64,000 bases of DNA from assembly GCA_017550285.1 (NCBI GenBank), contig JAFZPP010000005.1, positions 1-64,000 on the forward strand, read 5' to 3'. This DNA comes from Oscillospiraceae bacterium (GTDB taxonomy: Bacteria > Bacillota > Clostridia > Oscillospirales > Ruminococcaceae). Below the pieces are notes generated by a model, which saw nothing but the letters and a program-made list of their open reading frames with translations, did no database searches and had not been told where the DNA came from. The position numbers and the translations under genes are program-made. The stretch's first letter is position 1. Each line of letters starts with the position of its first letter. Positions 33,020 to 54,701 of the stretch are shown here, piece by piece.

Positions 33020-33058
33020 GCCCCGATAGCTCAGTAGGATAGAGTGGCTGCCTCCTAA
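33020..33058 (+). pseudogene. 5' half of the chromosomal tRNA-Arg(CCU) gene, split by the element
   Basis: Acceptor strand GCCCCGA, D arm, 5' anticodon stem GCTGC and loop CTCCTAA are intact, then homology stops. The missing partner GCAGC and the whole T arm lie 21.6 kb away at 54660-54701. CTGCCTCCTAA is shared by both junctions (33048-33058 and 54656-54666). Confidence 0.8.
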
Positions 33059-33102
33059 ACTATCAACCGGGCGATTGCCTTTTCTGTTATTTTTTATGAT
33101 AT

Positions 33103-33141
33103 GTCCCAGTACCTCAGCTGGATAGAGGATCCGCCTCCTAA
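33103..33141 (+). pseudogene. Orphan 5' half of a different tRNA-Arg(CCU)
   Basis: GTCCCAG acceptor strand, D arm CCTC/GAGG, anticodon stem TCCGC and loop CTCCTAA, after which the sequence does not fold (GAGTATTTTT). It differs at many positions from the other two copies, so it derives from another tRNA-Arg gene, and it breaks at exactly the same point, the integration site. Confidence 0.7.
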
Positions 33142-33185
33142 GAGTATTTTTCTCTCACGCAATAATCTGTTTTATATAATTATAA

Positions 33186-33259
33186 GCCCCGATAGCTCAG
33201 TAGGATAGAGCGGGTGCCTCCTAAGCACCAGGCCATCGGTTCGATTCCGGTTCGGGGTG
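33186..33259 (+). tRNA. tRNA-Arg (anticodon CCU), carried by the element
   Basis: 74 nt cloverleaf: acceptor GCCCCGA / TCGGGGT (G1-U72 wobble) with discriminator G, D stem GCTC/GAGC, anticodon stem GGTGC/GCACC with loop CTCCTAA (anticodon 33220-33222), T stem ATCGG/CCGGT with loop TTCGATT. CCA is not encoded. Compared with the reassembled chromosomal tRNA it has one compensatory pair change in the anticodon stem and a G-C for G-U in the D stem, so both molecules fold. Confidence 0.93.
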
Positions 33260-33262
33260 TTT

Positions 33263-33305
33263 GATTATGGCGAAAATGCGTGAAAAACGCGTTTTCGCCA
33301 TAATC
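33263..33305 (+). terminator. Hairpin after tRNA-Arg
   Basis: GATTATGGCGAAAA / TTTTCGCCATAATC, extended inward by GCGT/ACGC with one mismatch. It starts 3 bp after the tRNA and is the likely 3' end of its transcript. Confidence 0.65.
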
Positions 33306-33417
33306 CATTTTAGACCTTTGTAGATGGCGAAGGACTAATCGTGCAAAGCAAAAGATGCGGTTCTTTGGCTGAGCAATATAGTTTCAATTACGATTATGAA
33401 GCACGCTGAAAACTCAA

Positions 33418-33440
33418 AATCTTCAAAGAATCTTCAAATC
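33418..33440. repeat. Direct repeats resembling integrase arm sites
   Basis: AATCTTCAAA occurs at 33418-33427 and 33429-33438, 11 bp apart, between the tRNA and the integrase. TCTTCAAATC (33431-33440) recurs at 54510-54519 near the right end of the element. Confidence 0.4.
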
Positions 33441-33481
33441 AAGCGATAATCCGGTTATTTCTTCTAATGGTTCTAAACTCT

Positions 33482-34978
33482 CTATTTAGCATCGTTTTTG
33501 AGAGGATCATCGTCAATATTTGAAGGGTTTGCAGTGAGCGATTCCAGTTTTTGAAAAAGCTCTTTCTGCTGATCTTCTGAAAGCGATTGAAGCAGAGACC
33601 AAAAGCTATCCGGCGTAATCTGTTTATTCCGATCCTGCTCAGCTGCTTTGTGCGCTTTTTCAGCTTCCAAAGGCTCGAATACTACCGCATCCAGTTGTCT
33701 GGCAATTTCTTTTCGATGCTCTTCAACCGGGGATAAATAAATCCGGGTGAGCATCTCTGTTGTCGAATGTCCCATGTTTGCCTGCACTGCCTTAATATCA
33801 TTGCCTGAAACAGCCATCTGAATCGTGGCTCCCGAATGACGAAGGCTGTAAAGCTGGACCTGCTTGAGCGAACAAAACGATACATACTTATTGAAGCGCT
33901 TGGTCATAAGCTCGTCTGTATAAGGGCGTCCGTTTTTCTGATGAAAAACAAGGTCAAAATCCTGATAGGCACCCTTATAATTCTTCTTGTACTCTTCATC
34001 CTGCGCTTTTTGAATCAGCAGTCTGCGCAGCACATAATCCGGGATATAGTTATCTCGGTCGCTGCGTTCGGTTTTAACTTCCTTCAAAAACAATGCACTT
34101 TTGCTGTTGGGGACTTCATTTGGAAACTGAAAATGGATCACCGTCCCAGTGCGACGGATATCCTCAAATGTCAGCCGGGCGAGTTCACTACGAATATTCA
34201 ATTTTCCGATTGTGTCATGCTCTGACAGCTCGATGTCAGACCAGCGGAGCCCCAAAATCTCCCCCGATCTCAGCACACAAGCACACATAAAGCTGATGAT
34301 CAGCTCCAATTCACGGTCAGGACACTTGCGGAGAGCTTCCTGCACTTCCTCCAATGTCCACTGCTTTCTCTTGAACGGCTTTTCTCTGGGCAAAGATACT
34401 TCATTGGCTGGATTCACTGTAATCACTCCTAACTGAACGGCATACTTAAAGGCTGGACGAAGGATTTTATGAATCTCCTTAATGGTACGGGCTGAAATAT
34501 TAGGGTTTTCCGGGTCTCTCGGATGAATTGACGGATGGTTCTGCAAATCTTGATAGTATAATTGAATATAAGGTGTGTCTACGACATCAACAGTATCATC
34601 ACCGATATATGGATAGATATAGTTTTCTGCTAAATGCCTGTTAGAATAGGCTGTTCGGGCTTGCCACTCCCCGTCCCGGCATTTCTTTTCCATATATCGT
34701 TCAATCAACTCTTGGTTTTTCATGCCATTCGATGATTCTGTATTCGCATAATGAAGAGGCTTTTTCTTGGCATATCGCGGCTTTTTGTAGATTACACCCT
34801 TGTCCTCCGCTTTTTGAACGAGAGGCAACAATTCGTCTGCTTCCTCTTTGTTTTTGCATTTGTGCCAATGCTGAGGTTTTTTGCCGGAATGAATCATCTC
34901 ATATTCTTCGTCATGATAAGTCTGTATGACATAGTATCGGTCTTCTTTTTTCAGCCTTTTTACGAAAATCGAAGCCAT
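33482..34978 (-). CDS. int: Element integrase (tyrosine recombinase)
   Basis: 498 aa; MASIF at 34978 begins 4 nt after the stop of the excisionase-like gene, so the two are coupled. N-terminal arm-binding part, SAM-like core-binding domain (about 85-190) and a catalytic domain with Arg in CVLRSGEILGLRW, Arg in LYSLRHSGAT (the usual first His of HxxR is Tyr here), His in MGHSTTEM and nucleophile Tyr in TRIYLSP. A C-terminal extension of about 70 residues is charged. Its place beside the left tRNA junction makes it the enzyme for the tRNA-Arg insertion. Confidence 0.92.
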   Translation of the reverse strand: MASIFVKRLKKEDRYYVIQTYHDEEYEMIHSGKKPQHWHKCKNKEEADELLPLVQKAEDKGVIYKKPRYAKKKPLHYANTESSNGMKNQELIERYMEKKCRDGEWQARTAYSNRHLAENYIYPYIGDDTVDVVDTPYIQLYYQDLQNHPSIHPRDPENPNISARTIKEIHKILRPAFKYAVQLGVITVNPANEVSLPREKPFKRKQWTLEEVQEALRKCPDRELELIISFMCACVLRSGEILGLRWSDIELSEHDTIGKLNIRSELARLTFEDIRRTGTVIHFQFPNEVPNSKSALFLKEVKTERSDRDNYIPDYVLRRLLIQKAQDEEYKKNYKGAYQDFDLVFHQKNGRPYTDELMTKRFNKYVSFCSLKQVQLYSLRHSGATIQMAVSGNDIKAVQANMGHSTTEMLTRIYLSPVEEHRKEIARQLDAVVFEPLEAEKAHKAAEQDRNKQITPDSFWSLLQSLSEDQQKELFQKLESLTANPSNIDDDPLKNDAK

Positions 34979-34982
34979 TTTG

Positions 34983-35249
34983 TTAATCCCTTGTACCGAA
35001 GGCATATGCGAAAAACGAAGATTTTTCGATCAAATACGTTCGATTGAACAAAATCACGCGAAAGGGCTTATTCGTTTCGGCAGCTTGCTTCGCCATGTTG
35101 TAAACGGAAGCCAGACTTACGCCGAGTATGCTCTGGCATTCCTCAACGCGCATAAAAGCACACTGATCGGATTTCGTGGCGGCTCGGCGCCTGTGTTCCG
35201 GTTCCATCGGTTCAGTTTCCGCGATGATCGCTTCATTCTTAGTGGTCAT
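34983..35249 (-). CDS. xis: Excisionase-like small DNA-binding protein
   Basis: 88 aa; AGGAGG lies 8 nt before the ATG at 35249. After a disordered charged N-terminus, residues about 35-85 (MRVEECQSILGVSLASVYNMAKQAAETNKPF then RTYLIEKSSFFAYAF) form a winged HTH like MerR/excisionase folds. Position directly upstream of int is classic for Xis, which bends attL/attR and drives excision. Confidence 0.7.
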   Translation of the reverse strand: MTTKNEAIIAETEPMEPEHRRRAATKSDQCAFMRVEECQSILGVSLASVYNMAKQAAETNKPFRVILFNRTYLIEKSSFFAYAFGTRD

Positions 35250-35277
35250 TTTATTTTCCTCCTTCACATTGTTTTAT

Positions 35278-35302
35278 ATTCTCTGTACTGAATTCAGAGA
35301 AT
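35278..35302. promoter_or_regulatory. Palindromic operator upstream of xis
   Basis: ATTCTCTG n9 CAGAGAAT, arms perfect, 29 bp upstream of the xis start and in the gap shared with the divergent XRE regulator, which is the likely ligand. Confidence 0.5.
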
Positions 35303-35476
35303 TTCCACCAGCCATCTTAATTCGATACAGGTAGCACATTTCTGTGCCGTTATTATTATATCATATTTTCTATCTGGGCGCAAGGCGTTTTCTAAAATCC
35401 GTGGTAGAACCTTTTCAAGAATATTCATAAATTTCTGTTTGAGCTGCTTATCTGTGGCTTTCGGGGAGGCGATTTT

Positions 35477-36523
35477 GTGTTTGAATGGCTTTTGAAAAAG
35501 AAGATAGATCTGAACCAATCTACAGGATCGAAAATTCGTCGAATCCGTACACGGCGAAAAATGACTACGGATGCTCTAGCCAAAAAGTGTAACATTACAA
35601 AATCGGCTATCAGGCATTATGAAGGAGATTTCCGGATACCAAATGAAGAAAAGCTCCAGGAGATCGCTGCTGTATTGAATGTTGATATCTCTGCTTTATA
35701 TGACAGAAAGATCAGCAGCATCGCTGATATGATGCAAACTCTGTTTGAACTGGAAAATGACGGATATGTAGCTCCGACTCAAATTGTCACTGATGACAGC
35801 ACGCCTCGAATCGCTTACGGTGTTTGTTCTCTCAATGAAGCACTCAGCGAGGCTTTGGAAAACTGGCATCAGATGCATGAGCTATTAGCAAAAGAACAGC
35901 TTACAGAGGAAGAATATAAAGACTGGCAAGATGCTTTTCCACTTCAATATCAAACTGAGCAGCCAGATGAGACCGCAATCATTAAGGAAATAGAACAAAG
36001 CCCGCAGCAATCAAATACCGGCTCCGGATCTCGATATAGAAGAAAAGGGCTGTTGCGAATTCGTACGCATGAAGGTCACTTGATTGCGATGAGAAATGGT
36101 TCCGAGATATCTGAGGAACAGCTTAATCGGATTTGTGAATATGTCAACTGCTCTGTAGAATATCTGACTGATGATATGAATCTCCAATTTACGCCCAAAA
36201 CCAAGCAGTCACAAATCGTATCTGCTGACCGAGAAATGCTCGATGATGTTCTTGGCATGATGGACATGAACGCAGATACAGAGATATTCCGTGTTGTTCA
36301 GGTTCAGCTTTCCCGAATAGTGCTTTATCATTTGGCGCAGAAGGGGTTTGACCGTGAAAGCTTCCGCAGCAGAGACTTTTTACAGGAAAAAATGGACTAT
36401 TTGTATTTAGGAAAGAAACCTCGTTATAATACTTCGTGTCTTGGATTCTTTTATACCGAGCTCGCACTGATCAGAAAAACAACAGGATTATCCTTTCAGG
36501 AAATGTTTACAGGTATAAAGTAA
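35477..36523 (+). CDS. XRE-family regulator of the element
   Basis: 348 aa with a GTG start 7 nt after GGGGAGG. Residues 15-75 form an XRE/lambda-repressor HTH (KIRRIRTRRKMTTDALAKKCNITKSAIRHYEG). A middle region is acidic and a second HTH-like stretch may lie near 195-235 (HEGHLIAMRNGSEISEEQLNRICEYVNCSVEYL). It is divergent from xis-int and probably holds the element in its integrated state; no protease or sensor domain is visible. Confidence 0.75.
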   Translation: MFEWLLKKKIDLNQSTGSKIRRIRTRRKMTTDALAKKCNITKSAIRHYEGDFRIPNEEKLQEIAAVLNVDISALYDRKISSIADMMQTLFELENDGYVAPTQIVTDDSTPRIAYGVCSLNEALSEALENWHQMHELLAKEQLTEEEYKDWQDAFPLQYQTEQPDETAIIKEIEQSPQQSNTGSGSRYRRKGLLRIRTHEGHLIAMRNGSEISEEQLNRICEYVNCSVEYLTDDMNLQFTPKTKQSQIVSADREMLDDVLGMMDMNADTEIFRVVQVQLSRIVLYHLAQKGFDRESFRSRDFLQEKMDYLYLGKKPRYNTSCLGFFYTELALIRKTTGLSFQEMFTGIK

Positions 36524-36535
36524 TCGTTGAGAACG

Positions 36536-36572
36536 ACAGCCGCCGGTGTGTTCTATGCACATCGGCGGCTGT
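36536..36572 (+). terminator. Terminator of the XRE gene
   Basis: ACAGCCGCCG GTG / CAC ATCGGCGGCTGT stem, 13 bp after the stop; T tail is short. Confidence 0.6.
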
Positions 36573-36621
36573 TTCGCAATATATCAATGGCAATTGACTT
36601 CAAAATAATATTTCGCTTTTG

Positions 36622-36666
36622 TGTTAGTTTTTAATGGAGAATGGTGTCAAATAAAGTGAGGGTGAA
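36622..36666 (+). promoter_or_regulatory. Candidate ECF-dependent promoter
   Basis: TGTTAG (36622), GTCAAATA (36646) and GTGAGGGTGAA (36656-36666) occur with the same offsets (24 and 34 nt) as TGTTAC, GTCTATAT and GTGAGGGTGAA before the sigma gene at 63186. This shared spacing suggests autoregulation by the sigma factor. Confidence 0.5.
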
Positions 36667-36691
36667 TCATTTAGAGAAAGGAGGACGCGCA

Positions 36692-37252
36692 ATGACCGAA
36701 GATGAAAAGCTGCTGCGACTGTTTCAGGCACGCGATGAACGGGCACTCAAAGCTGCCGAACAGCAATACGGAAAGCTTTGCCGCACAATGGCATACCGGA
36801 TTCTGGGCGATCGACAGGATGCGGAGGAATGTGTCGACGATGTGCTGATGAAGCTCTGGGATACAATTCCGCCCGCAGCACCGCGCTCCCTGACAGCGTA
36901 TATCTCCGGTATTACGCGGAATCACGCACTGAATGTTCTCCGTGCAAAAAACAAAGCAAAGCGCGGCGGAAAGCAATATGATGCGGCGCTGGATGAGCTT
37001 TCACCCTATCTCAAATCAGACGAAGATATGGAGGACAGACTCGGAACAATCGCCTTGCAGGATGCCATTAACCGTTTTCTGGAAATGCTGCCGGAGGAAA
37101 CGAGCATGATTTTTCTTGCACGGTATTATTCCATGCAGCCAATCAAGGAAATTGCTGCAAAGCATTCCTCAACCGTCGGGCGTGTGCAAATGATTTTGAA
37201 ACGAACCAAAGAAAAGCTCCGTGCTTTTCTCAAAGAGGAGGGTTTACTATGA
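36692..37252 (+). CDS. ECF sigma factor on the element
   Basis: 186 aa; AAAGGAGG precedes the ATG at 36692. Region 2: ERALKAAEQQYGKLCRTMAY and DAEECVDDVLMKLWDTIPP; region 4: FLEMLPEETSMIFLARYYSMQPIKEIAAKHSSTVGRVQM. It is a paralogue of the chromosomal factor at 63186-63749 (shared ARDERAL, RKAL/EKLRAFLKEEGLL-type ends). Its stop overlaps the next start (ATGA), pairing it with a membrane partner. Confidence 0.92.
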   Translation: MTEDEKLLRLFQARDERALKAAEQQYGKLCRTMAYRILGDRQDAEECVDDVLMKLWDTIPPAAPRSLTAYISGITRNHALNVLRAKNKAKRGGKQYDAALDELSPYLKSDEDMEDRLGTIALQDAINRFLEMLPEETSMIFLARYYSMQPIKEIAAKHSSTVGRVQMILKRTKEKLRAFLKEEGLL

Positions 37253-38751
37253 AGCCGCAGGATTTTATGGAAGCACTCGGCGGTGTATCGCAGGAAAAGC
37301 TGGATGCGCTGGCAAAATGGCAGGAAGCCGGAACGCCGATTACCGGCAAAGCGCCTGCGCAGGAAAAACGCATCATGCAGACTGCTGCCGAGCCTGTCCC
37401 CACACAAAGGAGGAGAGGAAATATGAAACAGAATACGAGAAAGAAAGCATCCGTGCCGAGACTTTTCCCATGGAATATCGGTATTGGTGCAGCCGTTGTC
37501 GCCTGCGCGGTGATTGCGGTATCCATCGGAAAAGAGGTCATCGGGCAGGAACGGCAAATGCAGGTTGGCAGCAATGCGGGAACATCCATGTCAGAGCAAA
37601 TTGCTGAAAGCATAGCAGATGAGGTGAAGAACGAAGAAGACTCGGATCTGTCGCTGCCGGATGAATGCACAGAGGTGCAGGCAACTGAACCCGAAACACT
37701 GCCAGAGCCGTTTTCCGCGTGGTACTGGGTCACCTACGAGGGCAAATCCATCCCGCTGGACGGCATAACGGTTGACCTCATCCGCACCGCCGCAGACGGC
37801 GAAAAGTATCTGACCGGCGATCCGGAACAGAATCAGACCTCGCTTCGCACGCAGCTTTCAAAGGAATGGCTCGAAACCGGCTTTGACGAGCAGCAGATCA
37901 CAGACCCAGTTTCCGGTACGGTCTTTTCCATTGATCCGGATAATCCGGTGCAAGATATACTTTTTATCGGTGTGCCGGCAAGAGAAATGCCGAGCAATGT
38001 CGTGCGATGGGGGTATCATAACGGCACAATCACACCGTCCGGCAAGCTGCATCTGGATTTCAGCGTGCAAACAGTTAGTGATACAGCTATCAAGGCGCTG
38101 GGTGCGGAATATGATGATGATACGAATTTCTACTTCTTCATTTCGATTCCGGAGGGTTCGATTCCGAAGCTGACAGACTGGGATATCACCTTCAGCACAT
38201 TCTATACGGGTGCCGAGCCGGATGCGTACACCGCAGAGGCGCCGGAGAAAGTCGGGTTTGACGGCATGGATCGTATGCACGCATGGCTCAGCGAACAGCC
38301 GGAGAGCGAAAGCTACTGGTACAGCGTGCTCGGCGCAAAGCATATCACCCCGGTTCCGGAGGAGCAGCCGGGCACAGTGACACTCACGGACATCTCTGCA
38401 TGCCCAATCGAAGAACCGCCGCTTGAGAACAAGCCGATTGTCTCTGTCTTAGAATGCGGAGACATTGATAACATCACGCTGGTGCTGCCGATACATGATG
38501 CGGATGCCGCAGTCGCACTGAGCGATCTTCATGTTTCCGCAGACGGCATTCTCTCGCTGACGCTGAACGAGTATTACGAAAAGCACGGTGTTGACCTGAC
38601 ACAGGATACTGCAAGTTATCAGTGGGTGCTGGGTGTTCCGCACGGCAGCCTGCCGGAGATTAAAGACATAGATATTAGTCGTGTGAATTGTGACGATGAA
38701 GATGCTTTTATACAGATTGCCGGTCAGCTTTGCACCGTGACCATTGAATAA
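37249..38751 (+). CDS. Putative anti-sigma membrane protein
   Basis: 500 aa. A cytoplasmic N-terminus of about 75 residues (MKPQDFMEALGGVSQEKLD) precedes one membrane helix (about 80-98, IGIGAAVVACAVIAVSIG); the rest is an acidic extracytoplasmic region with two repeated units of the type ISIPEGSIPKLTDWDITFS and GVPHGSLPEIKDIDIS. Coupling to the sigma gene and the topology indicate an anti-sigma factor with a sensor domain; the N-terminus resembles the start of the protein at 63746 (MKAKDLLDIMGEIDAG). Confidence 0.7.
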   Translation: MKPQDFMEALGGVSQEKLDALAKWQEAGTPITGKAPAQEKRIMQTAAEPVPTQRRRGNMKQNTRKKASVPRLFPWNIGIGAAVVACAVIAVSIGKEVIGQERQMQVGSNAGTSMSEQIAESIADEVKNEEDSDLSLPDECTEVQATEPETLPEPFSAWYWVTYEGKSIPLDGITVDLIRTAADGEKYLTGDPEQNQTSLRTQLSKEWLETGFDEQQITDPVSGTVFSIDPDNPVQDILFIGVPAREMPSNVVRWGYHNGTITPSGKLHLDFSVQTVSDTAIKALGAEYDDDTNFYFFISIPEGSIPKLTDWDITFSTFYTGAEPDAYTAEAPEKVGFDGMDRMHAWLSEQPESESYWYSVLGAKHITPVPEEQPGTVTLTDISACPIEEPPLENKPIVSVLECGDIDNITLVLPIHDADAAVALSDLHVSADGILSLTLNEYYEKHGVDLTQDTASYQWVLGVPHGSLPEIKDIDISRVNCDDEDAFIQIAGQLCTVTIE

Positions 38752-38761
38752 GCCAATCCAA

Positions 38762-38839
38762 GGGCGTGCCTGCGGGTGCGCCCGTATTTTTCCGTATGAG
38801 ACAAATCGCCGCCGGTGTGCATGAAACATACCGGCGGCT
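38762..38839 (+). terminator. Two hairpins after the sigma operon
   Basis: GGGCG n12 CGCCC followed by TATTTTT (38762-38790), then a second stem GCCGCCGGTGTG / CATACCGGCGGC (38808-38838). Confidence 0.6.
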
Positions 38840-38913
38840 GTTGCTATTATGTTCGAAGAAGTGTTTTGTGAAATACAATACCCTTTCAGCTTTACTGTGG
38901 GGTGACAATCGAA

Positions 38914-38967
38914 TTTACATTTTGTTTACCTTGCGATGAATACTTGATGCTCTTTTTCCGTTACAAT
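38914..38967 (+). promoter_or_regulatory. Putative response-regulator box, copy 1
   Basis: TTTACA and TTTACC at 38914 and 38925, an 11-bp spaced direct repeat of OmpR/PhoB type. TTGATG starts 14 nt after it and TACAAT follows (38962). The same block occurs at 42696 before the ABC operon. Confidence 0.6.
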
Positions 38968-38980
38968 AGTCTTATAAGGT

Positions 38981-39009
38981 TTGATTTATATACCGGGATG
39001 TGGTATACT
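38981..39009 (+). promoter_or_regulatory. Sigma-A promoter of the lipoprotein/two-component operon
   Basis: TTGATT, 17 nt, TATACT, 21 bp before the ATG at 39030; it may give basal expression below the activator box. Confidence 0.55.
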
Positions 39010-39029
39010 ATGGAAAAGGAGTGCAAACG

Positions 39030-40646
39030 ATGAAACAGGGAAGATTCATTGCGGCGGCACTGGCGATGCTCCTGCTTGCGGGCTGCGCCGAAAATCCGGA
39101 TTCGGATATCGTGATTCACAAGGATATGGAAAAGGTCATTGACGAAGCGCAGCAGACCGATGAAAGCAAGGCAGATGTCGAGGAGCTTCGGCAATATGAC
39201 AGCTACACCGCCGATATTGAAAACGAAAGCCTGCGTGTCAGCATTCACGCAGATGCAAAGGTGGATATCCCGCAAACGGACAAGCTCTCAATTTTCCGCG
39301 TGAAGCAGCATGAATTCACGCAGGATGATGTCGATGCGGTGCGGGCGGCTTTGCTCGGCGATACAGAGCTGTATGACGGCGTGCTCATGACGCAGAAAAC
39401 AAAAGCTGAACTTGAACCGGAGATCGCCTATGTCCGTGAACAAATGGATGCAGAAATCGCCAAAGTCCCGAAGGACGATGCAGAAGAACATGACCGCGAA
39501 GTCATGATAGAGGAATGGCAGAGGTTTCTTGACAGATTGCAGACGCAATATGAAGCCGCGCCGTTTGAAACCCAAAAAGTTATTTCGGACGGCAAGCTGC
39601 AAAATGCCGCGGAAATGCTGCAAAAAGGTGAAAGCCCGGAATACTGGAGATGGCAGAATGACCTTGAATGCAAGGAATCCATCATGCTGCGCAATGCGGA
39701 CAATACCGCCGTGTTCTATGCGCAGAACAACCCGAATTACAGCAACAAAATCTGCTTCCGGACATCGCCGGTCGGGTCAGAGGAATACGGCGGTGTCACG
39801 GTGATGACCGACTCGCTGGATGCAAAAACAAAGAACGGCATTGACGATCCGTTTCTCGATCATCGCGGGGATTTACAGGGAGTCAAGGTCGAGCCGATGC
39901 CCGGTGATTCCTGTACGCTGACCCGCGAACAGGCAGAGCAGCAGGCACTGGCATTTTTGCAGCAGATCGGTCAGGCGGATTTCGCCTGCTTCGAGGGCGG
40001 CAGATATGCGGAATATCTCATGGTTGCTCGCAATGCTGACGATGACCGCCGCTATTACCGCACCTGCTGGATTCTGCGCTATTGCAGAGAGATCGGCGGC
40101 GTACTGCTGGAACAGAACAGCGGCATGAAATACGGAGAAACCGGCTCAGGCGAGGACTACAAAAAACATCTCTGGCCGCCGGAAATGATCGAGCTGCATA
40201 TCAATGATGCGGGCATCGTCTGGCTGGACTGGCATGCGCCGCTTGAGATCGCGGAAACGGTCGTGGATCATACTGCGCTGAAGCCGTTTTCAGATATCTG
40301 CGGGACATTTGAAAAAATGATGCCGATTATCGCAGCACCGCCGGAGCAGGCGTATACACCGGTTTCGGAGAACAACAGCTCAGATATAAAGATGACGGAG
40401 ATACCCGGAGAGCCGCCCGAACAGGCGGAAGCGGAGCTTTCGACCGAGATCAGCATCGACCGCGTGACACTGAGCTATTCGCGCATCAGCGAAAAGGACA
40501 GCTTTGATACCGGTCTGATTGTGCCGGTCTGGGGCTTTCTCGGCAGCCGGAAGGATTATAACAATTTTCATGAAGCAATATACGGCGTGCAGATGGCGGT
40601 CAATGCGATCGACGGCTCGGTCATAGATTCTGCACTCGGCTATTAA
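39030..40646 (+). CDS. DUF6034-like lipoprotein of a two-component operon
   Basis: 538 aa; AAAGGAG before the ATG at 39030. Lipobox LAGC (Cys19). The large extracytoplasmic part has a helical segment (about 115-185) and two PepSY-like halves with Trp/Asp-rich strands; the overall layout resembles proteins annotated DUF6034 in Clostridia. It lies 12 bp before the response regulator, so it is probably a surface sensor or a target of the system. Ligand unknown. Confidence 0.7.
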   Translation: MKQGRFIAAALAMLLLAGCAENPDSDIVIHKDMEKVIDEAQQTDESKADVEELRQYDSYTADIENESLRVSIHADAKVDIPQTDKLSIFRVKQHEFTQDDVDAVRAALLGDTELYDGVLMTQKTKAELEPEIAYVREQMDAEIAKVPKDDAEEHDREVMIEEWQRFLDRLQTQYEAAPFETQKVISDGKLQNAAEMLQKGESPEYWRWQNDLECKESIMLRNADNTAVFYAQNNPNYSNKICFRTSPVGSEEYGGVTVMTDSLDAKTKNGIDDPFLDHRGDLQGVKVEPMPGDSCTLTREQAEQQALAFLQQIGQADFACFEGGRYAEYLMVARNADDDRRYYRTCWILRYCREIGGVLLEQNSGMKYGETGSGEDYKKHLWPPEMIELHINDAGIVWLDWHAPLEIAETVVDHTALKPFSDICGTFEKMMPIIAAPPEQAYTPVSENNSSDIKMTEIPGEPPEQAEAELSTEISIDRVTLSYSRISEKDSFDTGLIVPVWGFLGSRKDYNNFHEAIYGVQMAVNAIDGSVIDSALGY

Positions 40647-40658
40647 AGGAGAAAATCA

Positions 40659-42685: not shown

Positions 42686-42695
42686 TAGGCTCCCA

Positions 42696-42750
42696 CTTAC
42701 ATTTTGTTTACATTTCGCTGAATACTTGATGCATTAAAATCTGCTATCAT
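42696..42750 (+). promoter_or_regulatory. Putative response-regulator box, copy 2
   Basis: CTTACA/TTTACA at 42696 and 42707 (11-bp spacing), TTGATG 14 nt later and TATCAT at 42745; nearly the same sequence as 38914-38967. It lies in front of the five-gene ABC module. Confidence 0.6.
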
Positions 42751-42785
42751 TATGGTAGCAGATTTTTGTTTTCGGGGGTGAATGC

Positions 42786-47847: not shown

Positions 47848-47859
47848 TATAGATTCCCC

Positions 47860-48024
47860 TCACTTTCCATGCTTAGTCTTGTCAACGAGTACGAATGTAG
47901 TTGCACCCTTGGGTGTCGGCGGAACGGTTTTTCCCTTAACAAGCGTAACCTCCGTCTTGCTGCCAACGGGTTTATACTGACCCGAAACAGGGGCTTTTTG
48001 CCCAGTTTTTATCTTTGTAGCCAT
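47860..48024 (-). CDS. YjzC-like small protein
   Basis: 54 aa, ATG at 48024 with AAGGAG about 10 nt upstream. The sequence KTGQKAPVSGQYKPVG, TLVKGKTVPPTPKG resembles the YjzC family of short Firmicutes proteins (KTGEKAP-SG pattern and KGE-FPPTP pattern). It starts the two-gene unit with the TIR protein, whose N-terminus has the similar string APVQGH. A role as partner or regulator of the TIR protein is inference from linkage only. Confidence 0.7.
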   Translation of the reverse strand: MATKIKTGQKAPVSGQYKPVGSKTEVTLVKGKTVPPTPKGATTFVLVDKTKHGK

Positions 48025-48097
48025 CAAGACCACGCTCCTTAAAATATATTTAAAGAGATCACACGCTTAATTTTTACTTTCTGCCGACAAAAAACTA

Positions 48098-48126
48098 TTG
48101 CATTCTGTGAGAGAATATGATATAAT
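48098..48126 (+). promoter_or_regulatory. Plus-strand promoter between the defence genes
   Basis: TTGCAT, 17 nt, TATAAT, pointing away from both minus-strand neighbours. Confidence 0.65.
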
Positions 48127-48131
48127 AGTAG

Positions 48132-48214
48132 TTGCTACACTGGCTAAAGTATCATATTCTGTATGAAATGCTTTTGCCGACTTAAGAGATGCCCCTCACA
48201 CGGGCATCTTTTTT
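48132..48214 (+). ncRNA. Candidate small RNA, about 80 nt
   Basis: Transcription from the promoter at 48098 would run into a strong terminator (GATGCCC ctcaca CGGGCATC then T6, 48188-48214). No frame with a ribosome binding site lies between. The stretch ATCATATTCTGTATGA (about 48150-48165) is partly complementary to the promoter region AGAATATGAT. It does not match an RNA family I know. Confidence 0.5.
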
Positions 48215-48329
48215 CATGTGATCGCTTTATTGCGAATTATTGATGATAGTCTCCATTGCGCTGAATACTCCATCTATCATCTTGCCCTTTTGGGGTATGA
48301 CTCCTTATTCTTGTTCCATGTTTAATCAC

Positions 48330-48977
48330 TTACTTGTGGCTTTTTGCTTTGATTTCTCTAATTAAACAATGAACTGTTGTACACGGACACATTTCTGAAG
48401 GTTTGTGTTTTCCCACGGATAGGTGTTCGTTATACTTCTGTTGCGCAAGCTTGATTGCTTGTTCCTCATCCCCAAAACGATTGAGTTTCTCGTAGATGTC
48501 CTTATCAGCCTTGGAGTATTTTTGACCTGTAACTTTATGAAAGGCTTGTGCGAAGCCGTTACAACAAGCTACTGAATCTTGATATGTAGGCATAGCGCCG
48601 AAATATGCATTGAACCATTCCTCGATGCATGGATTCGTCCACCCAACGCTAATGCCCTTTTCCTCGGCTTGACGGATGATTTCATCAAAGTTCTTGACTT
48701 TATCACGATCAAAGATTATCCATATCTCACCGTATTGTGGATTCATGGAAGCAAGATTTCGGGCCTCATCGACAAGATTATTAGATTTCGTCTTAATGAC
48801 TTTGATGACCAGCTTTCCCTGTAGTTCTTTGGGAATAGAATCCCTCAGCCCATACATATAGTTCTGTTCAGTTTCTTCTGTATCGGTGACAATAAAGTAG
48901 TAGCCCAGTTCAGGCACTCTTCTTCTGGCAAGTTGGTCACGAGTTTTTCGTATTCCGTTTCTTTCAGCACGAGCCAT
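48330..48977 (-). CDS. RloB-family protein (AbiLii-like, Toprim fold)
   Basis: 215 aa. Toprim-like elements: YYFIVTDTEETEQNYMYGL with the acidic residue near the N-terminus and IWIIFDRDK with the DxD pair, then NPCIEEWFNAYF. It starts 2 bp after the RloA stop. RloB pairs with an RloA ATPase in AbiL-type abortive infection and in restriction-linked loci, where the Toprim partner is the presumed nuclease. Confidence 0.85.
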   Translation of the reverse strand: MARAERNGIRKTRDQLARRRVPELGYYFIVTDTEETEQNYMYGLRDSIPKELQGKLVIKVIKTKSNNLVDEARNLASMNPQYGEIWIIFDRDKVKNFDEIIRQAEEKGISVGWTNPCIEEWFNAYFGAMPTYQDSVACCNGFAQAFHKVTGQKYSKADKDIYEKLNRFGDEEQAIKLAQQKYNEHLSVGKHKPSEMCPCTTVHCLIREIKAKSHK

Positions 48978-48979
48978 AT

Positions 48980-50248
48980 TTATTCCCCCTTGAACATATC
49001 AAAATGCTTCAAAGTCGGAATTGCTCCATACTTACCTAACAGGTAGTTTTTCTCAAAATTCTCGTCCTTACGAATCTTAACACCGTCTTCGTCAACAAAA
49101 TCAGCTAATGAGAAAAGATATGAGATACCATTAGAATCTTTTTCAGTAAACCAGATTTCGTCTCTTCTGAGAATATCACCGTTAAGCTGCCAGGAATCGT
49201 GGGAAGTAAATATTAACTGTGCATGATTTGTATTGATCTCAGGATCAAGGAACGTAATCACAAAAGCTCTCACAAGCAAGGGGTGAAGTCTTGCATTCAG
49301 TTCGTCAATAAACAGAACACCACCTGTAGACAATACATCCTGAAGCATAGGATACAAGGCAAACATCTTAAGTGTTCCAGCGGATTCGTATTGAAGCGGA
49401 ATTGATGTGGTCTGATCGGAATCGATCATTTTGTGAATAGCATCAATTCTTATTTTTGTGTTCTCTTCATCATTTTCAGATTTCAATACTTCAACATTAA
49501 ACCCGATTATAGAAGGATCAAATGCCGAGAAGTAGTCTACTACCTTTTGTTGTATTTCCTTATCCTCATCAAAGCCATCCGGAATCAGCTGAGATAAGAA
49601 GTAGTTCTCGATTGGCCTTCCAAAATCGGCAAAATCATTATGCAGGAACCAATCTCTGATTAGTTTTAACTTGGATATTTTGAGCTTGGCACCGAGAGAA
49701 ACGATAAGTGTTTCTTTCTCTAAAGCAATTTTCAGGTTTTCCTGGCTTTTGATTGGGATACCTGAAAATTCCAATTCATCACCGCGTCGATAAAAAATAC
49801 GCTTTAATTCTCCTCGGGATGATTTGGCCTTATAATTCAGCCATTCTTCGCATACACCATTGCTATCAACCGTAAATCCGTAATTATAAGTCTTGGCGCC
49901 GTTCTCCTCGGAGTCAATAAAGTACACTTCAAATGAAGATTCTGCTGTTTTACTCGTAGTATCAAACAAAAACGGTGTCGGCTTAAAAAACCTGGATTTT
50001 TTCTTAGTGTCGGATTCGTTTCCGTATTCCAGTGAATTGAGGACATATGTTGCCATATACCTGAAAGCTTCCTGCACGTTGGACTTACCGCTTGCATTTG
50101 CACCAAAGATAGCTGCGACAGGAAGTACTTTCTCGTTTGCTATAGAAATAACATGATTATTGAACTCGGATATTTTAGTTGCTGTGAGATCTAGAGTTGT
50201 GTCATCCTTAAATGATTTGAAGTTTTTATAATTAAACTGAAGTAGCAT
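48980..50248 (-). CDS. RloA/AbiLi-family AAA ATPase
   Basis: 422 aa; AAGGAGG 8 nt before the ATG. SMC/OLD-like ATPase: N-terminal FNYKNFKSFKDDTTLDL, Walker A IFGANASGKSN, signature-like YESAGTLKMFALYP, Walker B GVLFIDELNARLHP, switch TSHDSWQ. With RloB it forms a two-gene OLD-type defence system (AbiL family). An inverted repeat at 50309-50340 lies just upstream and may control expression. Confidence 0.88.
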   Translation of the reverse strand: MLLQFNYKNFKSFKDDTTLDLTATKISEFNNHVISIANEKVLPVAAIFGANASGKSNVQEAFRYMATYVLNSLEYGNESDTKKKSRFFKPTPFLFDTTSKTAESSFEVYFIDSEENGAKTYNYGFTVDSNGVCEEWLNYKAKSSRGELKRIFYRRGDELEFSGIPIKSQENLKIALEKETLIVSLGAKLKISKLKLIRDWFLHNDFADFGRPIENYFLSQLIPDGFDEDKEIQQKVVDYFSAFDPSIIGFNVEVLKSENDEENTKIRIDAIHKMIDSDQTTSIPLQYESAGTLKMFALYPMLQDVLSTGGVLFIDELNARLHPLLVRAFVITFLDPEINTNHAQLIFTSHDSWQLNGDILRRDEIWFTEKDSNGISYLFSLADFVDEDGVKIRKDENFEKNYLLGKYGAIPTLKHFDMFKGE

Positions 50249-50308: not shown

Positions 50309-50340
50309 CGCCCAAATGAGAAAAAGTCTCATTTGGGTGT
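50309..50340 (-). promoter_or_regulatory. Inverted repeat upstream of RloA
   Basis: CGCCCAAATGAGA / TCTCATTTGGGTG with a 5-nt loop, about 60 bp before the RloA start. On the minus strand it is not followed by a T run, so it is more likely an operator or leader hairpin than a terminator. Confidence 0.5.
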
Positions 50341-50465
50341 TGAAAAAGTGGCCAGAAACAAAATAACGAGTCCAACAAATAGTTCTTGCGTCTCAATGCC
50401 TTGATACGCACAGTACAATTTATGATTAGGCACCTGGTGCATTTGCGAGATAAAAACGCCAAAAA

Positions 50466-50762: not shown

Positions 50763-50774
50763 ATTCGTTCCTCC

Positions 50775-52646
50775 TCATCTGTGATAAAAACTATTCGGCG
50801 GAAAATATCCGTTCGGAAATAAGCCTGCTGCTCTCTGCGTATTGCAGCGATCAATCGCATCCTGCACAAAAGTCGTGCCAAATACTCGCTCTGCCACGCC
50901 CGCCAGTTCTGCCGCTTCCTGAAACGCTGCTTCAGCCTGTTCAAATTTTGAGCTCAGTTCCATCAGCTTTTTCTGTTGGGATTCTGTCAGTTCATAGATT
51001 CTCTTCCAGTTCCTCAGTGTGATATCCGGATACAGTTTCACCGTCTTTTCCGCCTGCTCCCGCGTGAAGTGCGCCGAAGGTTTGCCTCCGAACACCAATT
51101 CCAGCTTTTCTTGTAATTCCAAAATTGTTTTCGTTTCTTTTTCCACGTCCGCAAGCTGTTCGCGCAGATTTGTGACGACATCTTCTTTTTCAGCAAAATC
51201 CTTCCGAATCGAACCAAGCGTCGCACCGTCGTTTATCCGTTTGTTCAACCGCAGCAGGGCATTCATCTCCGGATCATTTTTCCATATGAAAGGTTTGGTT
51301 TTGTCCATGCGCTGCATCCGGATTTTTCCATCGCGGACTGTCTGCATATAATGCGCTATCGTTTCCATTACAATCAGATTCGGCACACGGCGCTCCCGCA
51401 TCTTGGGCAATTCGGTGCGGAAATACTGCTCACACTGAGAGAGGTATGCCATCCGACGTTTGAGTGCCTCTTCTGTATATTTTTCTCCGAGCGAACGGAG
51501 CCGAATAAAATTGGTGCCGTACTGCGGGCGCAATGCAAGATACTTGCCATACTTGATTTCATAGTTTGCCTTTCGCATCCGTTCTAGCAGCTCATCAAAA
51601 TTGTTTGACAACAAAGCGAAGCGGTCAATGTCCTCACGCATCTGTTCCCGGATATTCAGCGTCGGCGCTTTGTATTGCTTTTCGATTTTGCGAATCTCAT
51701 CAATGTAGCATTGCTGCGCCTCGAAGCCGGTGTCCGTTTCACGGAACGGAATACTTCGCAGGGTGAGCTGTGCTTGTACGAAAGCTTGCTTCTCTGCATC
51801 GGAATAGAAGAATGCTCGGTACGGCGATTGCTTTTCGTGTTCCAGTACTTTTGCACGAGCAGATAATTCTGCAATCCGAAACTTGATGTTCTGCGTAACC
51901 GCAATGTCTGAGAGATCGTATGTCTGCCGCAGCCGTTCCCTCATACGCTGCCGGTCCTGTGTGCGTTTGTATTCGTCAACGGTCATGTGATCGTAATGCG
52001 CTTGTTTATCCTCGCGTAGAAAACCGCGCCGCTGTAAAATCTTTTCCATTGCAATGCGTTCGGATTCTTCCCACCCAATCACGGGAGACTGATACTTTCC
52101 CCTCGCAGCAAATCCCATTTCGATCAGCGCTGCTTTCATTGACACCCCTTTGCTGAGTCCGCACTTCCGTTCTTTTGAATAAAACGGAATAAAGTCAATG
52201 TGCAGATGCGGCGATGCCTCGTCCATGTGCAGCACGGCATTAAAGATATGCAGATTCGGATTGCGCTGCTGAAACTGCTCCATGTATTCGATCAGCATTT
52301 CTTTTGCTATCTCTCCGCGCGGACTACCGCACGGAGAATTTTTGCTGTCACCAAATTGCACAATCACTTCATAGAAAGATTCCTCACGCTTTCCGTTCAG
52401 GATATGTGAGTAGTAATCATCAATGCGTCGGCTCGGACGATTTTGCTTCGCATTGTATGCAGCAAGTGCCTCGTCAAACAAATCTTCATATGCTGCTTCG
52501 ATTGATTCCGTCCTGAAAAAAATATTTTGATCGGAGCGTGCCTGCACGATATTCGATGCAGAAAACTCGCGGTTGTTGTGTGCGAGGTTTGCACCATGCG
52601 GCGCACTCGGCTTACCGAGCCGGAAGCTAATGCTGAACTGTTCCAT
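50775..52646 (-). CDS. mob: MobV-family relaxase
   Basis: 623 aa. N-terminal Plasmid_rec/MobV domain (1-230) with motif I HNNREF (His23) and the metal-binding motif HMDEASPHLHIDFIP (His140, His147, His149). The remainder is long coiled coil (about 255-600). It nicks at oriT, stays covalently bound to the 5' end, and leads the strand into a helper conjugation channel. It is what makes the element mobilizable. The candidate oriT lies 75 bp upstream. Confidence 0.92.
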   Translation of the reverse strand: MEQFSISFRLGKPSAPHGANLAHNNREFSASNIVQARSDQNIFFRTESIEAAYEDLFDEALAAYNAKQNRPSRRIDDYYSHILNGKREESFYEVIVQFGDSKNSPCGSPRGEIAKEMLIEYMEQFQQRNPNLHIFNAVLHMDEASPHLHIDFIPFYSKERKCGLSKGVSMKAALIEMGFAARGKYQSPVIGWEESERIAMEKILQRRGFLREDKQAHYDHMTVDEYKRTQDRQRMRERLRQTYDLSDIAVTQNIKFRIAELSARAKVLEHEKQSPYRAFFYSDAEKQAFVQAQLTLRSIPFRETDTGFEAQQCYIDEIRKIEKQYKAPTLNIREQMREDIDRFALLSNNFDELLERMRKANYEIKYGKYLALRPQYGTNFIRLRSLGEKYTEEALKRRMAYLSQCEQYFRTELPKMRERRVPNLIVMETIAHYMQTVRDGKIRMQRMDKTKPFIWKNDPEMNALLRLNKRINDGATLGSIRKDFAEKEDVVTNLREQLADVEKETKTILELQEKLELVFGGKPSAHFTREQAEKTVKLYPDITLRNWKRIYELTESQQKKLMELSSKFEQAEAAFQEAAELAGVAERVFGTTFVQDAIDRCNTQRAAGLFPNGYFPPNSFYHR

Positions 52647-52720
52647 ACGAATTCCTTTCTCTTTTCAGATTAGCCGCGAAAAATCGTAAAAGATGCGAAA
52701 TATGTACTGTTCAGATAGTT

Positions 52721-52795
52721 AACCCAATACCAGTTGTGTACGCCCCGTTCAGGACATACACAACTGCCGATTTGCTCCGCGAAACGGATTGGGTT
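52721..52795. other. Nested inverted repeats, candidate oriT
   Basis: Outer arms AACCCAAT / ATTGGGTT (52721-52728, 52788-52795) enclose inner arms CAGTTGTGTA / TACACAACTG (52731-52740, 52757-52766). Both are perfect. The position directly upstream of a MobV relaxase is where such origins lie. Confidence 0.55.
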
Positions 52796-52809
52796 TCCTG
52801 CAATCGCAT

Positions 52810-53169
52810 TCACACTTGTCCGGAAATATTCTGCTCCGCTGTTTTGGGAATTCCCAAGCCCTTTTTATGGATGCGACCGATTTCCGGATAATAATCTTTT
52901 TCGATTCTCAGCACGGAAGAAAGGAACAGCGCTGTCAGCCGAATCAGATTTCCAGCCTCATTGTCATAGAAAAACAGCGAAACACCGTCTGTGTCCTTGT
53001 GCTGATATGTTCGACCGTGCTTGATGATTTTTTCTTTCAGCTTCACAGCATCCGTCGCAAACATATTCTCAGTGTCCGCGACCGAAATAAAATGCAGCAT
53101 TTGTAGCAGCGCATTGATCTGGTTCCGATCGAATGTGACTGCGACAGAGCCAAGTGTAGTTTTTTTCAT
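52810..53169 (-). CDS. Small unknown protein of the element backbone
   Basis: 119 aa; the ATG at 53169 has AAGGAG at 8-nt spacing, whereas the longer reading would need TTG. Residues form an alternating strand/helix pattern (SVAVTFDRNQINALLQML, HKDTDGVSLFFYDNEAGNLIRLTALFLSSV). It lies between the replication initiator and the relaxase, suggesting a role in maintenance or transfer. No family is recognised. Confidence 0.65.
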   Translation of the reverse strand: MKKTTLGSVAVTFDRNQINALLQMLHFISVADTENMFATDAVKLKEKIIKHGRTYQHKDTDGVSLFFYDNEAGNLIRLTALFLSSVLRIEKDYYPEIGRIHKKGLGIPKTAEQNISGQV

Positions 53170-53312
53170 TTTCAAAACTCCTTTTCTTTTTTGAACACAC
53201 GCGTGCGTTCGACTGCTTATGCATGAAACTTTTCAATGATGCAATCAATCTCAAAACAAAAAAATGATTTTTGAAATGCTTGCAAAGCATCGAGAAATGT
53301 GGTATAATATAA

Positions 53313-54437
53313 TCATATCACCGCAATCTCCGTGTTCAGCTTGACACGATAGGATTTCAGACTGCTCCAAAGAACAGACTTTGCGTAACCAGCATAGTTT
53401 TTGATATGCGTGCTTGCGAGTGCTTCGGTGTAATCGTCCAGAGCAGAGAACATCATCTCCGAGAGTGAACCATATCCACCGCATACGGATGCCGCATTGA
53501 TCGCGTCGATTATTGTGCAGGCATCGGTCTGTTCCTTGCAGTAAGTTTGTGTGCCTGCTGTCGTTGCCATGCTGACCAGACTGCTGACTAAAAGAACGAA
53601 ACTGTCGAAACGGTCAGTTGTCTTCAATTCAGTTTTCTCACAGGGATACTTCATGTAGAAATCATATTCGCAAAGCCAACGAATCGCAGCCTGCATCTTC
53701 TTCGGACTTTGAGAATAAGCATACGGAATTTTCTGCATGGTCGTAATCTCTGAAGCCACCTGTTCGGTGATCTGAGAATCCGTCAATCCATCTGTCGAAG
53801 CGGCTTCGTCGCACGTAGATGGATTGATAGAAATCTCTGTAGAAGTCTTTGTAGTAATCTCTGTATTTGTCTGGGAAAATTTCCCATAGGGGTCTGTCGA
53901 AATTTCGGCACACCCCCCTCGAAATTCCGACACAGGGGTATCAGAGATTTCATCAGATACCACATCCGTTTTTTCGGGACACCCGTCCGGTGAAATTTCA
54001 CCACATGGGAATGTCAGTTCTTTCAGGCGCTCAACATTGAGCTCCAGATAGAGAACATTCGCGTATACCATGCCGTTGGATTGCAACGTGCGGAATTCAC
54101 GGCGTACGACACCCATGTGTTCCAGAAAGACAATTGCATCCTTCGCTTGTCCGGCTGAACAGCCGAACTGTTCTGCGATCTGCGCATAGCTGCGCTGCAA
54201 GAGATCATCGCGGAACTTCTTCTGATATCCGATCACCTGACCGCTGCCCTCATCCCGAATCTCGCGAGGACGATACCAATAAACGATGTCTGCAAGGATA
54301 TTGATCGCCAGGAGATGTGGCTTCGGGTGTTGGAGCCCTGACTTCACGAAAATACGATACCAAATCTGCGGAATGACATTACCGCTGAATATTGTGCCCA
54401 TGAGCTGATCGCAAGTTGGAATCCCAGTAGTGAACAT
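53313..54437 (-). CDS. Replication initiator-like protein
   Basis: 374 aa; MFTTG at 54437 with GGAG upstream is preferred to an upstream TTG. Residues 1-140 look like the winged-helix N-terminal domain of RepA_N/replisome-organiser proteins (ILADIVYWYRPREIRDEG, RSYAQIAEQFGCSAGQAKDAIVFLEHMGVV). A Thr/Ser-rich linker leads to a C-terminal domain (about 275-374) like DUF6017/DnaD-type modules (SEMMFSALDDYTEAL, NYAGYAKSVLWSSL). It is first in the right-hand backbone and should start replication of the excised circle. Confidence 0.7.
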   Translation of the reverse strand: MFTTGIPTCDQLMGTIFSGNVIPQIWYRIFVKSGLQHPKPHLLAINILADIVYWYRPREIRDEGSGQVIGYQKKFRDDLLQRSYAQIAEQFGCSAGQAKDAIVFLEHMGVVRREFRTLQSNGMVYANVLYLELNVERLKELTFPCGEISPDGCPEKTDVVSDEISDTPVSEFRGGCAEISTDPYGKFSQTNTEITTKTSTEISINPSTCDEAASTDGLTDSQITEQVASEITTMQKIPYAYSQSPKKMQAAIRWLCEYDFYMKYPCEKTELKTTDRFDSFVLLVSSLVSMATTAGTQTYCKEQTDACTIIDAINAASVCGGYGSLSEMMFSALDDYTEALASTHIKNYAGYAKSVLWSSLKSYRVKLNTEIAVI

Positions 54438-54655
54438 GATGATTTTCTCCGTTTCCTGAAAAATTGGAACAGATATTGCATCAGGTTCGTTGTTTTCAAT
54501 CTGCAAATTTCTTCAAATCTAAGATTGCCATATAGAGAATATTACTGCATAGAATGAAATGATCTATATAGAATACTTAGAGCCTAAAAGCACAAAAAAA
54601 TCACGCATTTCCTAGAAAAAGCGTGACTGGGTAGAAATTTGCCGAAGACAACTAA
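54438..54655. other. Right-end region of the element
   Basis: No gene. It holds TCTTCAAATC at 54510-54519 (also at 33431 near the left end) and a TCACGC/GCGTGA hairpin (54601-54626). Probable attP arm region with binding sites for integrase and excisionase. Confidence 0.4.
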
Positions 54656-54659
54656 CTGC

Positions 54660-54701
54660 CTCCTAAGCAGCAGGCCATCGGTTCGATTCCGGTTCGGGGT
54701 G
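54660..54701 (+). pseudogene. 3' half of the split tRNA-Arg(CCU), right junction of the element
   Basis: Anticodon loop CTCCTAA, stem GCAGC, variable loop, T arm and 3' acceptor strand TCGGGGT plus G. GCAGC pairs perfectly with GCTGC of the half at 33020 but leaves a G-G mismatch with GGTGC of the intact copy, which identifies the original partner. A terminator hairpin follows as expected for the ancestral tRNA. Confidence 0.8.

Follow-up and report, generated by a model that had tools for sequence, protein, structure and literature searches.

A split tRNA-Arg(CCU) gene and its layered replacements at a putative integrative and mobilizable element of an Oscillospiraceae bacterium

This study analyzed a split tRNA-Arg(CCU) gene, and the putative integrative element between its two parts, in an Oscillospiraceae bacterium (GCA_017550285.1, contig JAFZPP010000005.1, positions 1-64,000, forward strand). 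The whole 64,000-nucleotide stretch is called the window, all coordinates refer to it, and features lie on the + strand unless stated otherwise. The gene is found in two parts, at 33020-33058 and 54667-54701, with approximately 21.6 kb between them. We designated the outer, host tRNA as T1, a middle copy as T2, and an inner, intact copy as T3, all of them tRNA-Arg(CCU). The T1 5' half at 33020-33058, already recognized in the initial annotation, was confirmed by sequence match, stem pairing, and comparison with relatives. The 3' half proposed there also exists, but its supposed start at 54660 takes in part of the core, and the 3' half proper, which was identified through its stem pairing with T1, covers 54667-54701. 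An 11-bp match, CTGCCTCCTAA, is common to the outer left core (33048-33058, attL of the whole unit) and the right core (54656-54666, attR). This 11-bp core had been noted before, but its length appears to be partly coincidental, with only CTCCTAA, the 7-nt anticodon loop, forming the common part of the right end in 9 of the 14 loci for which a right end was available. The left junction, as previously described, does not rebuild the tRNA; it runs into a spacer, and the right junction holds the 3' half only.

Behind the outer left core lies a 44-bp spacer (33059-33102) assigned to lineage A, one of the integrase lineages described below; near-identical spacers stand beside lineage-A integrases in the relatives G188 and G311, and the window copy appears to be the relic of an earlier element. 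It is followed by T2 (33103-33141), the 5' half of a lineage-A replacement tRNA-Arg(CCU) cut at the core, which was identified by repeat comparison and is intact in relatives (whole in G188 and G311, and also in G313, G314, and G320 behind a different spacer). T2 ends in the inner left core (33131-33141). A second 44-bp spacer, of lineage E (33142-33185) and common to G299/L009, leads to T3 (33186-33259), the intact replacement, inside which the core is present again at 33214-33224. ARAGORN found T3 as the single tRNA (CCU) of the whole window, and its minimum-energy fold was a cloverleaf. T3 was also the only complete tRNA-Arg(CCU) match in its own genome, the remaining two matches being the two halves, so that the separate intact copy reported at 33186 was verified. 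A hairpin with 19-nt arms, detected as an inverted repeat just 3' of T3 (33263-33305), is perhaps a terminator; it obtained no terminator score in a simple terminator scan. The integrase gene adjoins T3.

The three 5' parts are in register (33012-33058, 33095-33141, and 33178-33224), with start-to-start distances of 83 and 83 bp. Each ends in GCCTCCTAA, which has one further exact occurrence in the window, at 54658; T1 and T2 end after the anticodon loop, and T3 is whole. The initial annotation had read the locus as a single insertion: the insertion into the anticodon loop of the outer tRNA stands, but the third 5' half, the 83-bp period, the multiple insertions, and the foreign lineage of the middle half had been overlooked. 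Regular spacing with one functional copy at the end could also be produced by a tandem duplication of tRNA-Arg(CCU) whose upstream copies decayed, with no mobile element involved. We give this explanation almost no credence. The broken copies stop at the anticodon-loop core, the copies differ in sequence (T2 was 72% identical in the copy comparison) and belong to types that track integrases, and 3' halves that match them are present on the same contig at distances of about 6 to 48 kb.

The distal 3' half (54667-54701) forms 12/12 acceptor- and anticodon-stem pairs with T1, 9/12 with T2, and 11/12 with T3. The minimum-energy fold of the rejoined T1 was a cloverleaf, unlike that of T2 joined to the distal half; the z-score was only -0.70, and the fold is thus weak as evidence. 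An uninterrupted tRNA-Arg(CCU), identical letter for letter in five same-genus genomes, is one nucleotide away from the rejoined T1 and two from T3. A G-G mismatch between the T3 5' half and the distal half had earlier been presented as an argument that T1 was the target. The mismatch is real but weak alone (11/12 versus 12/12), and the case is made by the relatives.

The same data can be read as a conventional tRNA-targeting island. On that view, integration restored the target as the intact tRNA at 33186 and displaced a fragment, now the 3' half at 54667, and the two upstream halves would be relics with no connection to it. A 48-bp stretch is 98% identical between T3 and the distal half, and the order of tRNA, integrase, and, at the far end, a 3' fragment is the standard signature of such islands (Islander, PMC4383910; here and below, statements on published systems refer to the portions of the cited papers that were available). 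However, the 5' half of the intact tRNA fits the distal 3' half poorly in relatives (7/12 pairs in G302, 8 in G719, 9 in G314 and G549, and 10 in G304), whereas the outermost half forms 12. Moreover, the site occupied in G298 is empty in G310, where the sequence matches the left flank of G298 as far as the core and its right flank from there on; the outermost half is thus joined straight to the right flank, with no spacer and no second or replacement tRNA. The empty-site comparison proposed in the initial annotation, run at this sister locus, revealed an uninterrupted tRNA that joins the sequences flanking the G298 element and thus favoured that annotation's reading. The conventional island is refuted for the G298/G310 pair, and we consider it very improbable overall.

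At the site of the window itself, the relatives provided no empty allele in which both flanks are present; G319 has a left flank similar to that of the window and an intact tRNA of another type at the contig end. The left flanks of G317:C57 and G319:C47 both resemble that of the window and are followed by a different tRNA-Arg(CCU) type (GCCCCGG); the host tRNA type at one locus seems to differ between close species.

We tabulated the pairing at 14 loci, comprising eight genus loci (with the right end on another contig in three) and six long contigs chosen from other genera. Orphan 3' halves in G308, G315, and G321 were left out, as no left end was tied to them. One 5' half paired 12/12 with the distal 3' half at 10 of the 14 loci. 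This perfect partner was the outermost half in G000, G298, G302, G304, G314, G719, G426, and G549 and a middle layer in G729 and G140 (three layers tie in G140). The half of the intact tRNA itself paired worse than the perfect partner at nine of the ten loci and tied in G298.

We surveyed relatives for the layout of a host 5' half, an anticodon-loop core, a short spacer, a complete replacement tRNA-Arg(CCU), and an integrase. The core used in the patterns of the present survey was CCTCCTAA; about 68-103 bp were allowed between cores, so that longer steps came to light only in additional layers. A pair of cores separated by 68-98 bp was matched in 14/30 genomes of the genus, and 13/30, the window's own genome included, were genuine; the two-core matches of G319 were dropped as unrelated repeats. 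These loci all show a tRNA 5' half, the core, a 43-53-bp spacer, and the next tRNA, in this order. ARAGORN found the innermost tRNA complete in every genuine genus locus scanned, except for G317, in which the contig ends within the tRNA. The family-wide scan matched 40/396 genomes, an upper bound that includes some false matches: those of G184, G296, G102, G125, G193, and G337, and the single matches of G381 and G275, were not tRNA-like by eye and were rejected. In the genuine family loci examined, the innermost tRNA was complete except at the contig-end loci L111, L118, and L132. A stricter order-wide pattern matched 41/394 genomes in 31/169 genera, and a reversed control pattern matched four genomes. 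The number of 5' halves per array, intact copy included, was two in 54 of the 82 arrays, three in 19, four in six, five in one, and six in two.

The DNA pattern was far more sensitive than the integrase search, which at E 1e-60 found 2/297 family genomes (own included) and, when genome contigs were searched, one locus. L009 and G299 are apparently the same contig (19,205 bases) and not independent. In viral contigs, 25 two-core stretches were found and all were dropped; ARAGORN detected no tRNA in any of the 25. By eye, core mutations were seen in outer layers of G303, L112, and L125.

The spacer and tRNA beside the integrase form types that track the integrase, the integrases being 72-98% identical within types and 34-55% identical between them. 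Type A is found in G188 and G311 (integrases 72% identical), type B in G297 and G304 (90%), type C in G298 and G302 (90%), type D in G313, G314, and G320 (90-98%), and type E in the window and G299 (90% over 307 aa, and 85% over 494 aa in a separate comparison); type F is found in G303 alone. The integrase frames of G313 and G299 are interrupted, and their identity comparisons are partial. In the window, T2 and its spacer are of type A and the integrase is of type E. Judged by these types, the middle half of the window comes from an integrase lineage other than that of the window's own integrase. From core and lineage matching, the integrase's own element probably starts at the second core (33131-33141); the first 83 bp resemble a remnant that another lineage left behind and that may now travel with the element. 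The nesting idea had predicted beforehand the state that was found in G188, namely a whole type A tRNA 83 bp behind the host half with the same spacer. Other relatives show A over another layer (G311) and F over B over C (G303). The far half of G188 and the hairpin following it resemble type F by eye, and the A element therefore probably landed in an F element in that genome.

G140 appears to preserve both an older and a newer element. The fourth of its six layers, together with a 3' half at 9239, makes up a tRNA that is found intact in L109, L110, L113, L122, and L128. The older integrase (9633-10880) is still in place and shares 87-89% identity with the integrases that adjoin the five intact copies, and the integrase of the newer element is about 29-30% identical to those five. 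From these matches, the newer element is placed inside the tRNA gene of the older element, whose integrase has been retained. No right end of the older element was detected in the 60 kb examined.

Alternatively, spacer A, the T2 half, spacer E, and T3 may constitute the single fixed left end of one composite element that moves as a unit, with no stepwise nesting in this genome. G299/L009 has the same A-under-E combination with an 85% identical integrase and a different upstream flank, and the right core of the window matches the first left core over 11 bp. However, this explanation leaves the origin of the A layer unaccounted for, A is innermost beside A-type integrases in G188 and G311, and G140 shows nesting with the older integrase still present. 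We regard the composite as a real possibility whose probability is clearly below even; it can be true for recent moves together with stepwise nesting for the origin.

Several observations accompany these types. In L009/G299:C71, the closest relative of the window integrase has stop codons in the matched stretch, so this sister element may be stuck in place. G312:C31 (L205) and G316:C50 (L204) carry element-type replacement tRNAs with hairpins as chromosomal tRNA-Arg(CCU), the G312 copy behind an apparent decayed 5' half (by eye); domestication after loss of an element is possible. At L186 (G452:C1), the first 13 kb of the oriented contig contain a 124-bp-spaced layer (with a tRNA starting GTCCATA) and then ParA/ParB-like genes (by eye), with no integrase homologue. 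The 20 bases before its right core are those of the integrase-bearing elements in G719 and G549, and the L186 element possibly borrows an integrase.

We calculated what a conventional chimera would give at these sites. The 82 arrays yielded 63 distinct steps after duplicates, unreadable 3' halves, and tRNAs pairing at less than 11/12 had been dropped. A hypothetical chimera of the element's 3' half with the actual target would form a mean of 9.35/12 pairs, versus 11.95 for the element's own tRNA, and 10 or fewer in 45 of the 63 steps. In other genera, many spacers (L108-L133) start with an apparent short, degenerate tRNA 3' half (GCGGCAGTTCGTTCGAATCC); this decayed half is perhaps the leftover of a conventional attP relieved of its task.

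The distances from core to core over 124 steps fall into groups of 70-71, 80-83, 91-95, 101-106, 114, and 124 bp. For 17 spacer lineages, the vector length was 0.784 at 10.2-10.8 bp, a value reached by 0/10,000 simulations under two nulls. The best period was 10.7-10.9 bp. In the enlarged set, from which five duplicate loci had been removed, p was about 0.004 with seven clusters, and none of 10,000 simulations reached the observed value with 17 or 27 clusters; in a first, smaller set, p was about 0.08 with five clusters, 0.0015 with 12, and at most 5e-05 with 20. A single-linkage clustering (12 clusters, p about 0.008) was replaced, as it chained unrelated spacers. Helical phasing in steps of about 10.8 bp is well supported but not proven, and the lineages may not be fully independent. 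The phasing points to a constraint at the DNA level, such as an intasome that needs the tRNA or its neighbour on a given face of the helix. We tentatively propose, at a probability somewhat below even, that the attachment site functionally includes the replacement tRNA gene: attP would be a two-core structure in helical register, and its tRNA gene would rescue the host as well as offer the next element a place to land.

A putative host tRNA promoter, TTGACC-17-TATAAT (32955-32983, 11/12 consensus matches), lies upstream of all tRNA layers. It was the only site in a stricter scan of 32900-33350, in which shuffled sequences average 0.9. Across the 82 arrays, the best-matching sigma-70-like site within the 70 bp that precede the outermost half had a mean of 3.3/12 mismatches (shuffled 4.65), versus 4.85 before inner tRNAs (n = 117; shuffled 4.57). 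The outer and inner sites differed (Mann-Whitney p 3e-9), although the arrays are not independent; single-base shuffles of 70-bp stretches were used. Five of the 13 genus outer stretches had 3-5 mismatches, and the host promoter of G299 lies beyond 70 bp. A promoter inside the spacers as a general feature was unsupported, the inner sites being no better than shuffled sequence. Because the outer sites surpass shuffled sequence and the inner ones do not, transcription of the replacement tRNAs probably starts at the host promoter, which remains in front of all layers.

Taken together, it is very probable that a relaxase-bearing integrative element splits tRNA-Arg(CCU), carries a whole replacement, and is itself re-targeted in a relay, of which the window displays two steps. 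A tyrosine integrase would recombine at the 7-nt anticodon loop CTCCTAA, which is common to all 14 right ends, partly because the search required it. The insertion would split the target tRNA gene without rebuilding it, and the element would supply a complete tRNA-Arg(CCU) at a fixed distance downstream of the left junction. The new tRNA falls behind the promoter of the old one and is therefore probably transcribed from it. The replacement keeps the core and would therefore be the next target for another lineage, which would break it and bring its own. T2's 3' half and the lineage-A body are absent from the window, and we infer that the body of the older element was lost, putatively when the two right-hand cores recombined, so that spacer and 5' half remained as an 83-bp footprint. 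The proposed history of the window would accordingly run from host T1 through a lineage-A footprint (T2) to a lineage-E element with T3. If true, the layers of tRNA halves are an ordered, readable record of element invasions at one locus across a bacterial order.

Several points weigh against this relay. Four of the 14 right ends (G313, G188, G320, and G452) have no perfect partner, the link to right ends on other contigs was assumed for G304, G313, and G314, and three halves tie at 12/12 in G140, whose fourth layer was chosen on sequence grounds. The right ends of G297, G299, G303, and G311 were not found, the contig of G317 ends, and many of the relatives' genomes are fragmented. With T3 pairing at 11/12, the window alone barely separates the readings, and it contains neither a T2 3' half nor a lineage-A body. 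The innermost type of G452 has no integrase homologue within reach. A chimera would pair fully in 13 of the 63 steps, in seven with identical stems. A perfect TATAAT is located at 33175-33180, 5 bp before T3, with a poor -35 (three mismatches); T3 may have a weak promoter of its own, although a start from this TATAAT would fall at or inside the tRNA. Finally, the host carries a tRNA-Arg(UCU), and tRNA-Arg(CCU) therefore may not be essential; besides CCU, the arginine tRNAs detected in this genome were UCU, ACG, and CCG (22 scanned of 30 loci from 45 tRNA matches).

The element encodes its own integrase, a 507-aa tyrosine recombinase (33482-35005, - strand; PF00589 5.7e-14, PHROG integrase 1.1e-51). 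Beside it, a 94-aa protein (34983-35267, - strand) is a possible excisionase by position; it had no Pfam or NCBIfam match and one weak PHROG match of unknown function. The region 35477-47010 (+ strand) contains cargo genes identified with Pfam, NCBIfam, and PHROG: a helix-turn-helix regulator, an extracytoplasmic function (ECF) sigma factor, a DUF6034 protein, a response regulator with a histidine kinase, an ABC ATPase, and several proteins without a family. Putative defence cargo occupies 47161-50248 on the right side of the element. It consists of a TIR protein like ThsB of Thoeris (47161-47847, - strand; PADLOC 1.6e-100, PF13676) and an RloB/AbiLii-like and AAA/AbiLi-like, AbiL/Rlo-type pair (48330-50248, - strand; Pfam and PADLOC). 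Near the far end are a Mob_Pre/MobV-type relaxase gene (50775-52646, - strand; PF01076 6e-20, and NCBIfam MobV 1.1e-08, which is under its curated cut-off) and a gene for a replication-initiator-like protein (53313-54506, - strand; PHROG 270 replication initiation protein 1.7e-10) for which Pfam, NCBIfam, and PADLOC gave no match.

No phage structural or lysis family and no conjugation-apparatus family was found when 20 open reading frames (ORFs) of the element were compared with Pfam, in which 7/20 have no family at all, and no phage structural or lysis family when 10 were compared with PHROGs. The integrase had no relative among viral contigs in a search that finds close relatives only, and all 68 plasmid records matching it were below 60% identity, the best-ranked at 31%. 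Because a relaxase is present and neither phage structural nor conjugation-apparatus families were found in the 20 ORFs, the element is taken for mobilizable. We provisionally classify it, from its gene content, as a putative integrative and mobilizable element with predicted helper transfer; the lack of a conjugation apparatus is itself provisional, given the seven ORFs without a Pfam family.

Whole-tRNA replacement sets this element apart from the usual tRNA-targeting elements, as the initial annotation had maintained, but breaking a tRNA and carrying a whole replacement is already known in phages. Actinobacteriophages (Fionnbharth, Cluster L, Gaia, and others) break a tRNA gene and carry a complete one, with 8-17-bp cores, in what was termed "tRNA-dependent lysogeny" (Guerrero-Bustamante and Hatfull 2024, PMC10865867). 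The element of the window shares with them a short core in a tRNA gene (here 7-11 bp), the absence of rebuilding at either junction, and a complete tRNA of the same isotype (here T3, CCU). By contrast, their carriers are temperate phages of Actinobacteria, whereas the present element bears a relaxase and does not qualify as a temperate phage. In Fionnbharth, the tRNA gene overlaps a second gene and is driven by a strong promoter of its own, and in Gaia the tRNA is downstream of int. Here, the tRNA follows attL at a set distance (core-to-core spacing of 70-124 bp in all arrays), keeps the core, and seemingly uses the host promoter. The available portion of that paper describes neither re-targeting of the phage tRNA nor stacked halves. 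The window element operates in the manner of tRNA-dependent lysogeny, but we do not classify it as lysogeny.

Rhizobium vTRX32-1-like phages in tRNA-Leu similarly provide a complete replacement for the interrupted tRNA, but their tRNA is without the core (PMC8631192), which is kept here; tRNA replacement is also mentioned in Sinorhizobium (PMC11476347). Conventional tDNA islands (PMC4383910) commonly have an anticodon-centred crossover, and they share the integrase inside and the fragment at the far end. However, their attP fragment restores the target gene, whereas the present element supplies an entire gene and leaves the target broken; no attP fragment restoring the tRNA was found at the junction. 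In the Dehalococcoides ssrA islands (PMC3146451), a single RNA gene has likewise been used for integration repeatedly, and tandem islands lie between repeats, but this system involves 20-bp repeats of the gene's 3' end and a serine recombinase instead of successive whole replacement genes. Our literature searches, which covered open-licence papers, turned up no account of replacements being re-targeted, of 5' halves in layers, or of phased spacing. The relay, the spacing phased at about 10.8 bp, the apparent use of the host promoter, and the relaxase-bearing, non-phage carrier look new.

This strategy would avoid the usual limit of tRNA-targeting elements, which is to match the other half of the target. 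With a whole gene carried, one lineage can use targets with different stems, and with the core kept, many lineages can share one site while the host keeps its tRNA. The left-over halves would give the order of insertion, and the history of competition at one site may thus be read from single genomes. A bacterial tRNA-Arg(CCU) can be foreign and repeatedly replaced, and an annotation that takes the intact tRNA as the left end would misplace the element's boundaries. Directly upstream of the tRNA site, a large secreted protein is encoded at 30165-32888; it has, by eye, a C-terminal dockerin-like stretch and looks like a cellulosomal GH74-type enzyme.

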